Virus record (IMG/VR): IMGVR_UViG_3300007735_000698 | Location: 1 to 38,259 of that record | From: a virus | Direction: 5' to 3' (one strand) | Length of the DNA: 38,259 bases | Shown here: positions 4,667 to 8,469 of the stretch, piece after piece | How positions within the stretch are numbered: position 1 is the first letter of the stretch | Layout: every line of letters begins with the position of its first letter | The notes under the pieces: model-generated | The model's input: the letters and a program-made list of their open reading frames with translations, nothing else | Told to the model about the DNA's origin: nothing | The model's database searches: none | Program-made: the position numbers and the translations under genes

Positions 4667-4695
4667 ATTATATCATGCGCTTACGCGCTTGTCAA
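4667..4695 (-). promoter_or_regulatory. consensus promoter for amidoligase-amidotransferase unit
   Basis: On the minus strand TTGACA (4690-4695) and TATAAT (4667-4672) are separated by 17 bp, and TGA directly before the -10 makes an extended -10. All twelve consensus bases match. The -35 lies in the 3' end of the upstream gene; transcripts would start near 4660, giving a short leader with CAA repeats before the binding site of the amidoligase gene. Confidence 0.78.
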
Positions 4696-4873
4696 TTCTC
4701 GTGTGTGCTTGGTCTATCATCTGATTGCTAATATTATCTCTAAGATTATCGGTGTGGGCGCGTAGCCCATCGAAGCCCTGTTGTCTGAGTCTAGCCGACT
4801 CGTTGCGTAGGGCGGTGCGTAGGTAATCTAAATCTGTCACGCTTAGCGTGATGATGAAATCATCGGGACTCAT
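4673..4873 (-). CDS. small helical hypothetical protein, 66 aa
   Basis: The protein is predicted to be almost entirely helical, with heptad-like Leu/Ile spacing (LSVTDLDYLRTALRNESARLRQQ) and many Arg residues. It could be a short coiled-coil or a DNA-binding accessory protein; no family is recognised. The ATG overlaps the stop of the small membrane-protein gene by one base (TAATG). Its 3' end doubles as the -35 region of the amidoligase promoter. Confidence 0.65.
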   Translation of the reverse strand: MSPDDFIITLSVTDLDYLRTALRNESARLRQQGFDGLRAHTDNLRDNISNQMIDQAHTRIDKRVSA

Positions 4874-5952: not shown

Positions 5953-5968
5953 TGTGAATTGGGTCACA
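5953..5968. promoter_or_regulatory. Crp/GlxR-type binding site 1
   Basis: TGTGA-ATTGGG-TCACA matches perfectly the TGTGA-N6-TCACA dyad bound by the cAMP-receptor family (Crp in mycobacteria, GlxR in corynebacteria). It lies between the leftward promoters and the rightward control elements, so it could affect either direction. Confidence 0.6.
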
Positions 5969-6041
5969 TATTCTAAAATGGGGCAAATCGGACATTCCCG
6001 CATTATAGCAGGATAGACTAGACATGACCGATATTAAATCG

Positions 6042-6057
6042 TGTGATGTCGCTCACA
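6042..6057. promoter_or_regulatory. Crp/GlxR-type binding site 2
   Basis: TGTGA-TGTCGC-TCACA, a second perfect dyad 89 bp from the first, ending five bases before the first 11-bp repeat array. Confidence 0.6.
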
Positions 6058-6062
6058 TAGTA

Positions 6063-6106
6063 TTCTGAGAATTATCTGAGAAGTTCCTGAGAATATGCTG
6101 AGGGGC
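6063..6106. repeat. array A: four 11-bp repeats with CTGAG core
   Basis: CTGAG cores begin at 6065, 6076, 6087 and 6098, exactly 11 bp apart, so all lie on the same face of the helix. The unit is roughly NCTGAGAANTT; the fourth copy is GC-rich (GCTGAGGGGC). The array is the mirror image of array B across the rightward promoter. Confidence 0.8.
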
Positions 6107-6172
6107 TAAGGGCATGGGGAGAGAGTCGGTAATCGAACATTTGTACTATGGTGGAAATCACATTTATAATGC

Positions 6173-6202
6173 TTGACATAACCTACTAAGTCATGGTATA
6201 AT
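6173..6202 (+). promoter_or_regulatory. strong rightward promoter for the packaging and virion operon
   Basis: TTGACA (6173-6178), 18-bp spacer, TATAAT (6197-6202), with TGG before the -10 (extended -10): all twelve consensus bases match. It lies between the two 11-bp repeat arrays and would start transcripts near 6209, giving a leader of about 390 nt before the terminase gene. Confidence 0.8.
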
Positions 6203-6211
6203 GGAAGGTTT

Positions 6212-6225
6212 AGCCCGATAGGGCT
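6212..6225 (+). promoter_or_regulatory. 5'-end stem-loop of the rightward leader
   Basis: AGCCC-GATA-GGGCT, a perfect 5-bp stem with a four-base loop, starting about three bases after the predicted transcript start. It may protect the 5' end. Its last base begins array B. Confidence 0.45.
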
Positions 6226-6266
6226 CAGGTAACTATCAGGATACTCTCAGGAAACACTCAGGAAGT
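6222..6266. repeat. array B: four inverted 11-bp repeats with TCAGG core
   Basis: TCAGG cores begin at 6225, 6236, 6247 and 6258, exactly 11 bp apart. Read on the minus strand the units are CCTGAG-type and match array A (three CTGAG, one CTGAT). The GC-rich unit again lies nearest the promoter, so the pair of arrays is a symmetric 4+4 dyad. Array B is inside the transcribed leader. Confidence 0.8.
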
Positions 6267-6363
6267 TCTAAGATTGACCCCATGCTTGTTAAATCAGGGG
6301 TGCTGGGCTGATATAGTCTCACCCTAAAATTTTCTGTTATAAGCCCCCCTATACCTATCTGAC

Positions 6364-6379
6364 CTGGGCTTTTGCCCAG
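6364..6379 (+). terminator. stem-loop in the rightward leader (possible attenuator)
   Basis: CTGGGC-TTTT-GCCCAG, a perfect 6-bp stem with a four-base loop, followed by an AT-rich stretch rather than a T run. It may pause or partly terminate transcription. Confidence 0.4.
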
Positions 6380-6406
6380 AAATATATACCCCCTAAAAAT
6401 ATATAA

Positions 6407-6441
6407 AGGAAACCTGTTCGGTTTCCTGAAATGAACAGGTT
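6407..6441 (+). promoter_or_regulatory. mutually exclusive hairpin pair 1
   Basis: AGGAAACC at 6407-6414 pairs with GGTTTCCT at 6420-6427 (8 bp, 5-base loop). Alternatively AACCTGTTC at 6411-6419 pairs with GAACAGGTT at 6433-6441 (9 bp, 13-base loop). The two helices share bases, so only one can form at a time, as in attenuators and riboswitch expression platforms. Confidence 0.5.
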
Positions 6442-6462
6442 ATCTTATATGTAATAATAATT

Positions 6463-6503
6463 CCATATAAGAGCGAGCTTCGCTCTATGGCTCGCTCGCT
6501 TAT
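6463..6503 (+). promoter_or_regulatory. mutually exclusive hairpin pair 2
   Basis: AGAGCGA at 6470-6476 pairs with TCGCTCT at 6480-6486 (3-base loop), and the flanks CCATA (6463-6467) and TATGG (6486-6490) add potential pairs. Alternatively GAGCGAGC at 6471-6478 pairs with GCTCGCTC at 6490-6497, extendable by ATAAG/CTTAT past a small bulge. The alternatives exclude each other. Confidence 0.5.
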
Positions 6504-6538
6504 ATATAATATATATAATTATATAATATAATATATAT
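6500..6538. other. alternating A/T tract upstream of terminase
   Basis: About 40 bp of nearly pure A and T made of TATATAAT-type units. It resembles the tract at 32167-32271. It could help strand opening (packaging initiation or origin) or insulate the ribosome binding site from structure. Confidence 0.5.
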
Positions 6539-6549
6539 GGGGATGCTCT

Positions 6550-6567
6550 GCCCGTTTTCTGACGGGC
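6550..6567 (+). promoter_or_regulatory. stem-loop just upstream of the terminase start
   Basis: GCCCGT-TTTCTG-ACGGGC, a perfect 6-bp stem, 33 bp before the terminase ATG. It leaves the GGAGG binding site (6586-6590) free. Confidence 0.45.
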
Positions 6568-6600
6568 GTTATTAGTGTGATTTAACGGAGGTTACAGGCT

Positions 6601-8469
6601 ATGGGACGAAAGCCAGGTAAGGTCGACATCCCTATGGCTGAGGCCAAGGAGAAGGTCCTACTGATGCTAGGTCAGGGTAGTACCATTACCCAGGCTATGG
6701 CCTCTGTCAACCGAAATGAGGTTACCTTCCGTCAATGGACGATGAAGGATGCTGACTTTAAACAGAGAGCCGACGAGGCCCGCCTAGAGGGCAAGGGCGT
6801 CAAGGCTGACTTGAAGAACCTCAAGGACATCAGCTTCGAGGAGTTCAGCGAGCAGTTCCTAGATACCAAGCTCTTTGACCATCACCTTGACTGGGTAGAT
6901 TTGATTGAGGGGCGCGAGCCCCGTTGGTACCACCCGGCGATGACATACGAGCCAGGGGCGGCTAACCGAGTCCTGATTAACGTTCCCCCCGAGCACGCTA
7001 AGTCGACAGTCATCACGATTAACTACGTGACCTATAGACTGGCGACTGACCCGAATGTACGCATCATCGTAGTCTCCAAGACTCAGGGTATGGCACGTAA
7101 GTTCCTCAGCGCCATCAAGACAAGACTTTCCCACCCTAACTGGATTAAGCTCCAGACGGCCTTTGGCCCTAACGGTGGATACAAGGCTGACTCCCAAACG
7201 TGGAGCGCCGATATGATTTACCTAGGTAGCGGACGAGACTCTGGCGAGAAAGACCCTACGGTACAAGCCCTAGGCTTTGGCTCACAGATTTACGGTGCTC
7301 GTGCCGACTTGATTATCCTAGACGATGTTGTGATGAACTCCAATGCCCACGAGTGGGAGAAGCAAATTGAATGGCTTCAAAAAGAAGTCATCACACGCTT
7401 AGGCCGACACGGGAAACTACTTATCGTAGGGACCCGTGTTGCGCCCGTAGACTTATACAAGATGATTCGGGATGGGCAACAGTGGACTGGTGGCAAGAGC
7501 CCCTTCACATACTTTGCTCAACCAGCCGTATTAGAATTTGACGAAAAGCCCAGCAACTGGAAAACACTATGGCCATGGACAGATAGGCCTGAGGGCGAGA
7601 AAGACGAACCAAATGAACAAGGACTCTACCCAAAGTGGGACGGCCCCTCTCTCTTCACTAGACGAAGCGAAGTGGCGCCTTCTGTCTGGGCAATGGTCTA
7701 TCAACAAGAAGACGTCATCGAAGACGCTATCTTTTCGCCAGCAGCAGTTGCAGGATGTGTCAACGGTATGCGAAAGCGCGGCCCTCTTAAACCAGGTGCT
7801 CCGGGGCATCCGAAACATTTAGAATCTGCTTATACGGTTATTGGTCTTGACCCTGCGATGACGGGGAACACGGCAGCGGTGGTCTTGACTTATAACCGAA
7901 GTGATAGTATGATTTATGTGTTGGATGCTGTCAATATGACTGACCCAACACCAATGAAGATTAGAGCCCTGATTGAAGAATGGGTTCAGAAGTACAAGCC
8001 ACAAGAACTAAGAATTGAAATCAATGCCCACCAGAAAGCATACGCACTCGATGACGACTTGCGTAACTGGCTCTCGATGTATGGGTGTCAGCTCAACTCT
8101 CACTTCACTGGTAAGAATAAGTGGGATACTAACTTTGGTGTGGCTTCTATGGCAAGCCTTTTTGGTAGCCTTAGAGATGGAAGACATCAAGATAACAACT
8201 CAATAGAACTACCCAGCAACGAAGGTAGCGAAGGACTCAAGGCACTGGTACAGCAGTTGATTACCTGGAAGCCTGAGACTAGAAACCCTAGTGACTGTGT
8301 GATGGCTCTCTGGTTTGCAATCATTCGCGTCCGCGAGTTGATGCAGCAACATTCCCAGTCAGCTAGATGGATGCAGAATAGATGGGCTACACGCGCTCAG
8401 ACAGAGCGTAAATTCTCAATTAACTTAGATGATGCTATTGCAGAACAATGGCAACAAACATACGGATAG
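6601..8469 (+). CDS. terL: terminase large subunit with fused small-subunit-like HTH, 622 aa
   Basis: This is the DNA-packaging motor. Residues 1-62 look like the helix-turn-helix of terminase small subunits (ITQAMASVNRNEVTFRQWTMKDADFKQRADEAR), so DNA recognition may be built in; no separate small-subunit gene is seen. The ATPase follows, with a variant Walker A, PPEHAKST near residues 128-135 (Glu and Ala where many have Gly), and Walker B DLIILDD near 236-242. The RNase-H-like nuclease starts at VIGLDPAMTG near 413, and a later acidic residue lies in SDCVMALW near 565. The ATG at 6601 has GGAGG 10 bases upstream. Packaging uses ATP to fill the prohead through the portal encoded next. Confidence 0.93.
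   Translation: MGRKPGKVDIPMAEAKEKVLLMLGQGSTITQAMASVNRNEVTFRQWTMKDADFKQRADEARLEGKGVKADLKNLKDISFEEFSEQFLDTKLFDHHLDWVDLIEGREPRWYHPAMTYEPGAANRVLINVPPEHAKSTVITINYVTYRLATDPNVRIIVVSKTQGMARKFLSAIKTRLSHPNWIKLQTAFGPNGGYKADSQTWSADMIYLGSGRDSGEKDPTVQALGFGSQIYGARADLIILDDVVMNSNAHEWEKQIEWLQKEVITRLGRHGKLLIVGTRVAPVDLYKMIRDGQQWTGGKSPFTYFAQPAVLEFDEKPSNWKTLWPWTDRPEGEKDEPNEQGLYPKWDGPSLFTRRSEVAPSVWAMVYQQEDVIEDAIFSPAAVAGCVNGMRKRGPLKPGAPGHPKHLESAYTVIGLDPAMTGNTAAVVLTYNRSDSMIYVLDAVNMTDPTPMKIRALIEEWVQKYKPQELRIEINAHQKAYALDDDLRNWLSMYGCQLNSHFTGKNKWDTNFGVASMASLFGSLRDGRHQDNNSIELPSNEGSEGLKALVQQLITWKPETRNPSDCVMALWFAIIRVRELMQQHSQSARWMQNRWATRAQTERKFSINLDDAIAEQWQQTYG

Follow-up and report, generated by a model that had tools for sequence, protein, structure and literature searches.

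To our knowledge, phages that use an operator of a host two-component system are represented by few cases, mostly phosphate genes of marine cyanophages. Phased 11-bp repeats also occur on plasmids, as in the parC site of plasmid R1, where a promoter is flanked by two blocks of 11-bp iterons. Response regulators of the OmpR/PhoB family bind 11-bp units arranged head to tail (PMC4415409; PMC4832192). PhoP of M. tuberculosis binds TCACAGC-N4-TCACAGC, where the 4-bp spacer is required and three or four units are bound more tightly (PMC4832192), and the Streptomyces PHO-box core is GTTCACC, the reverse complement of GGTGAAC (PMC4415409). Here, two arrays of 11-bp units in an actinophage genome are described, each of which is predicted, with a probability of roughly 0.85, to be a multi-unit operator for the PhoP-type (OmpR/PhoB-family) response regulator of the host, as the unit corresponds to the host PhoP operator in both search directions, with phage- and host-derived matrices matching each other's sites.

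The window, i.e. the whole stretch of DNA analysed (38,259 nucleotides), is a 38.3-kb virus record from IMG/VR whose two ends nearly overlap in sequence and which therefore probably represents a complete permuted map. A gap of about 1 kb separates a leftward arm (WhiB, GATase, amidoligase) from a rightward terminase operon, whose first gene encodes, as the sequence-only reading had stated, a terminase with a fused HTH. Both arrays are located inside this gap, together with the following features (window positions).

5953-5968, no strand assigned: second CRP/GlxR-like palindrome, TGTGAATTGGGTCACA
6002-6007, minus strand: candidate -10 element for leftward transcription (TGC-TATAAT), predicted from sequence; it is located to the left of the left array and its -35 is weak
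6042-6057, minus strand: CRP/GlxR-like palindrome TGTGATGTCGCTCACA, with the left array 6 bp away; this class is enriched in the relatives' gap
6064-6103, minus strand: left array of four PhoP-type units (6064-6070, 6075-6081, 6086-6092, 6097-6103); CTCAG reads leftward, to the left-arm genes
6116-6127, plus strand: G-box GGGGAGAGAGTC with a second AGTC core, where the terminal repeat is predicted to have its left end (6124^6125), by analogy with Beephvirinae
6125-6315, no strand assigned: direct terminal repeat of 191 bp predicted from homology, containing the right array
6135-6146, no strand assigned: degenerate LexA-like box GAACATTTGTAC; perfect GAACN4GTTC in 33 of 63 relatives
6173-6202, plus strand: sigma-A-like consensus promoter TTGACA-N18-TATAAT facing the terminase operon, present also in L001 and L030
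6223-6262, plus strand: right array of four PhoP-type units (6223-6229, 6234-6240, 6245-6251, 6256-6262), reading to the terminase operon
6267-6273, plus strand: degenerate fifth right-hand unit, TCTAAGA, in register
6276-6318, plus strand: GACCCC..TTGTTAA..N..AGTC element; predicted right end of the repeat at 6315^6316, from alignment to the ends of Streptomyces phage direct terminal repeats
6601-8469, plus strand: terminase large subunit (terL) with an N-terminal HTH-like segment (phrog_38, E 9.2e-66), first gene right of the gap

The exact 11-bp spacing claimed earlier was confirmed for the CTGAG cores at 6065, 6076, 6087 and 6098 as well as for the TCAGG cores at 6225, 6236, 6247 and 6258. 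These arrays are the only 11-bp-spaced runs of at least four in the window, and 200 dinucleotide-shuffled versions of the whole window yielded no run of four exact 5-mers at any constant spacing between 8 and 24 bp. The repeat unit is (T)CTCAGG-N4, arranged head to tail, and the layout of a PhoP box, with 7-bp motifs and a 4-bp spacer in head-to-tail orientation, is thus found twice in the window, each time with four units. The description of the arrays as mirror images holds insofar as they form an imperfect inverted repeat (38 nt, 76%), whereas their orientation and side vary among relatives.

In G001, the closest complete relative, six GRTRAAN (GGTGAAC-like) units run in register into four CTGAG units, and the match of the former to the published PHO-box core was the reason for testing the arrays as operators of a host regulator. 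The host set comprised small (0.6-2.2 Mb) actinobacterial genomes, many with rhodopsin, which probably belong to the Nanopelagicales, the order to which the host of two cultured Planktophila phages, E7 and F5, belongs (OX376640 and OX376641; PMC10202952); a copy of the terminase of the window's phage was not found in these genomes. A pattern derived from phage arrays only (CTCAGRWWNNNCTCAGRWW, 8 of 11 positions) gave 18 matches in 121 genomes versus 4 for the reversed-pattern control. Seven of the matches lie directly upstream of one response-regulator/kinase operon (L219-L223, L254, L255) and eight at an operon encoding ferric-reductase-like, FMN-binding and ApbE proteins (L224, L225, L247-L250 with two in L250, L252), while the remaining three comprise one at another operon (L253) and two probable chance hits (L226, L251). 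With regard to a regulator's own promoter and regulon, 15 of the 18 matches are hence concentrated at two operons of the presumed host order.

With a matrix built from 75 phage sites, 28 of 29 loci had their best score immediately before phoP, in every case on the sense strand, with a median of 18.7 bits versus 1.6 bits for the rest of the locus. Conversely, a matrix from 13 host sites gave the window's arrays as its top seven matches (27.4-15.0 bits, the next at 10.3; 27.4, 27.0 and 15.0 bits in the left and 17.3-22.9 bits in the right array), an agreement whose independent parts are the genomic location of the matches, the strand and the non-core positions, since the host sites were found with the phage pattern and both matrices share the CTCAG core by construction. 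The host-site matrix likewise ranks the arrays top in G001, G003, G004 and G009. The background is about 0.006 sites per 500 bp. The units of the host promoters are oriented along the transcript, and the host sites consist of two units each; exact three-unit runs were at chance level in 296 host genomes, and scanning for such runs over all bacteria gave mostly scattered matches, of which none bore the label of the host order. An unrelated genome, Coriobacteriaceae bacterium SIG39, contains four CTCAG arrays with 11-bp spacing and at least three units each, at separate and mostly intergenic places (L146, L156, L172, L208). As for the method, GGTGAAC-N4-GGTGAAC gave 34 matches versus 0 for the control in the same host order, at sites adjoining, among others, pstC, pstS and phoU genes (identified from translated starts), demonstrating that the known box is recovered.

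The response regulator of the host operon has 247 aa, with M. tuberculosis PhoP as nearest solved protein (E 2e-87), and a PhoP-type regulator is kept in 48 of 61 presumed-host genomes. Three of the six published base contacts of M. tuberculosis PhoP are identical in the alignment (Glu215, Tyr217, Tyr220), whereas Asn212, Val213 and Ser216 are replaced by Gly, Ile and Thr, a pattern that fits two related motifs with a shift in spelling, from TCACAGC in M. tuberculosis to TCTCAGG in phage and host. An OmpR-type DNA-binding domain (Trans_reg_C) is not encoded in any of the seven phages scanned, the window's phage included. An MprA box was also considered as a literature match and dropped, as no usable paper was found.

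For comparison among phages, 80 terminase relatives were fetched from IMG/VR, and sites in the gap upstream of terL were counted over 63 loci. The 11-bp phasing is shared, since among close relatives, defined by a TerL identity of at least 89%, nearly all have 11-bp direct repeats as the strongest self-similarity of this gap, and in the complete relatives, searched over whole genomes, arrays of the CTCAG kind are confined to it. Among the annotated phages of the phage collection, similar gap DNA was not found. One left-facing and one right-facing array are present in the window and L001; most other relatives have right-facing arrays only, and L031, L069, L071 and L078 a left-facing pair only. 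Orientation follows position over the 63 loci: the G-box has every minus-oriented array (6 loci) on its left and almost every plus-oriented one (29 loci) on its right. The site is absent from the gap in 30 of the 63 relatives, including phages E7 and F5. The sequence-only reading had named relatives with the same genes and no phased repeats as evidence against itself; about half of the relatives are of this kind and the rest keep the repeats, which argues against an essential packaging role. The consensus promoter flanked by the arrays is present in the window, with an 18-bp spacer, but is found in three close relatives only (window, L001, L030), hence the arrays are independent of it.

Some loci show further repeats. 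About 610 to 490 bp upstream of terL, L001 has ten contiguous 11-bp units, six PHO-box-like (GRTRAAN) followed by four PhoP-type, in register. L069, L071 and L078 have, at about 560 bp before terL, a pair of GATAACGATTT units in register with two CTGAG units; the pair may represent boxes for another response regulator, for example MtrA. Among array-free relatives, the same gap contains an 8-bp tandem repeat ATATGTCG in L058, L060, L062 and L065 and a 15-bp tandem repeat AAGTTACCTATTGGT in L075 and L077. L053 shows an insertion of about 280 bp between the array region and terL, with a tRNA-like stretch (GCCTCATAGTTCAATGG..GGTTCAATTCC) just before terL.

Other sites are concentrated in the gap as well. 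CRP-like TGTGAN6TCACA is present in the gap of 35 of the 63 loci versus 0.000 per 700 bp elsewhere in the same genomes, and LexA-like GAACN4GTTC in 33 of 63 versus 0.011 per 700 bp, suggesting that several host regulators may converge here. On the left side of the window, the array is followed by the CRP-like palindrome 6 bp off and then by a TGCTATAAT -10 with a poor -35; an activator-dependent leftward promoter is plausible from this arrangement. For M. tuberculosis, promoters on which both PhoP and CRP converge have been reported (PMC9645806). On the right side, about 15 bp lie between the predicted start of the TTGACA/TATAAT promoter and the beginning of the right array downstream of it. 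Near phage arrays, -10 elements show a weak enrichment (40% versus 25% in shuffled sequence), and a fixed -10 distance after the arrays was not clearly above chance across relatives.

In the proposed mechanism, PhoP in its phosphorylated form would occupy the four 11-bp units of an array as a head-to-tail row on a single helix face. The left array would serve the leftward arm (GATase, amidoligase, WhiB) and the right one the terminase/structural operon. The leftward promoter would be activated by PhoP at the left array, while at the right array PhoP might either activate or act as a roadblock just past the promoter start. Phage transcription would thereby respond to a signal sensed by the host kinase, and the main control region of the phage appears wired into a host sensing system. 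Of the earlier interpretation, a control region whose sites face one side of the helix and bind a cooperative protein fits this mechanism, as does the guess of a regulatory switch, whereas the parC and terminase-iteron readings are not supported. WhiB or left-arm proteins do not seem to be needed as binders. A 66-aa left-arm protein (4673-4873) was considered and rejected: it is present in array-bearing close relatives with enough flank and absent from L068 and L073, hence its link with the arrays is confounded by descent. Integrase attP arm sites were likewise discarded, as no integrase was present among the genes scanned and the arrays read as promoter operators. More tentatively, and at somewhat less than even odds, a single 500-bp panel in a virulent phage that infects dominant actinobacteria of freshwater could integrate host sensors through PhoP arrays with interleaved CRP-like and LexA-like sites, plus, in a close relative, phosphate-regulon boxes that keep the 11-bp register. 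If so, left versus right expression would be set by the envelope/redox, phosphate, cAMP and DNA-damage status of the host.

The main rival accepts the same binding protein and differs in its effect: as phage copies rise, the arrays could act as titration decoys that soak up host PhoP and blunt the host stress response. Such a decoy would be favoured by the four to five units of each array, a number that host promoters do not reach, and by the predicted position inside the terminal repeat, which would double one array; the weak -10 adjacency points the same way. However, array orientation sorts by side as for promoters, and the arrays lie among CRP- and LexA-like sites of a divergent control region. 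Titration is thus considered unlikely, and transcriptional control is favoured over it.

Much less probable is an array for packaging or concatemer processing, for which the SPP1 pac site and the short repeats next to the T7 ends offer comparisons; here, the terminase or a small terminase protein would bind the phased units beside the repeat ends. The gap does probably hold the direct terminal repeat of the genome, predicted at 6125-6315 by analogy. The six Beephvirinae genomes examined have deposited direct terminal repeats of 253-276 bp at the genome ends, and their terminase is homologous to that of the window (46-48% identity for those listed), the gap being syntenic. In Manuel, a distance of 41 bp separates the first base of GACCCCAGGGTTGTTAA from the right repeat end downstream, and a similar element is found in the other Beephvirinae examined; in the window, the same right-end element starts at 6276, with AGTC at 40 bp versus 41 bp in the Streptomyces phage. 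The arrays would be only 20-50 bp from the predicted cuts. Nevertheless, the G-box is conserved in most relatives, arrays present or not, and the end motifs persist in relatives without arrays (arrays are absent from 30 of 63 loci), hence the arrays are not what marks the ends; moreover, the unit is a host promoter operator. A terminase bound to the arrays, as proposed before, is also at odds with its putative HTH recognition helix, which is the same with and without arrays and differs in the array-bearing L049 and L068. Contig ends were dismissed as physical ends, as contigs neither start nor stop at the predicted cuts.

Next to the predicted repeat, the terL leader (6320-6600) contains several hairpin-like inverted repeats (CTGTTCGGTTT..GAACAGG, GCGAGCTTCGCTC..GGCTCGCTCGC) and is strongly conserved across relatives; Rfam gave no family at its cut-off for this leader. 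A GGGCAAATCGGACATT-like motif recurs in the gap (5980-5996 in the window, and in relatives) and is common to the Streptomyces phages FlowerPower and Manuel.

Least credible of all is a replication origin or a partition site of the R1 parC type with iterons bound by a phage protein, a reading suggested by two inverted four-unit 11-bp arrays around a promoter but contradicted by the same units at host phoP promoters, by the many relatives without arrays and by the lack of partition genes in the scanned proteins, where ParM/ParR, reported as missing by the sequence-only reading, were not found either among the left-arm and neighbouring proteins scanned (part of the small ORFs included).

If each array is an operator for host PhoP, its spelling (TCTCAGG), matching one bacterial order, provides a practical host clue for uncultured phages. 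For cultured strains of that order, we know of no CRISPR spacers that would allow host assignment. Furthermore, the arrays would offer a testable case in which a virulent phage times its development according to what its host senses.

Compared with known systems, the arrays share with the M. tuberculosis PhoP box (structure 5ED4, PMC4832192) the 7 + 4 bp head-to-tail units and a T-C-x-C-A-G core, and the regulators of M. tuberculosis and of the host set belong to the same subfamily; unlike that box, the phage has TCTCAGG-like units, four to five per array, in two divergent arrays that constitute a predicted operator. Streptomyces PHO boxes (GTTCACC direct repeat units; PMC4415409) are alike in repeat geometry, and G001 has six such units, whereas the motif differs and no such array is present in the window. 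The Beephvirinae phages FlowerPower, Manuel and Immanuel3 share the syntenic gap upstream of a homologous terminase and the right-end element, but CTCAG arrays were not noticed in them and the ends of the freshwater phage are predicted only. Plasmid R1 parC differs in that partition genes were not found by the window's arrays and the unit is a host operator. The cyanophage Pho boxes under host PhoB control (P-SSM2 pstS, S-PM2; PMC10976474) are likewise phage-carried operators for a host regulator of the OmpR/PhoB family, with a cognate regulator that is not phage-encoded, as in the seven phages scanned here. Under phosphate stress, however, the cyanophage boxes act at metabolic genes and at some genes of replication (PMC10976474), whereas the window shows a different regulator, long arrays and the main divergent control region of an actinophage by a predicted terminal repeat. 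Hence, the arrays are best read as a variation on this known strategy rather than as a new class of element, the novelty being copies of a PhoP-type operator that are assembled into long arrays and occupy the main divergent control region in a freshwater phage group of high abundance.
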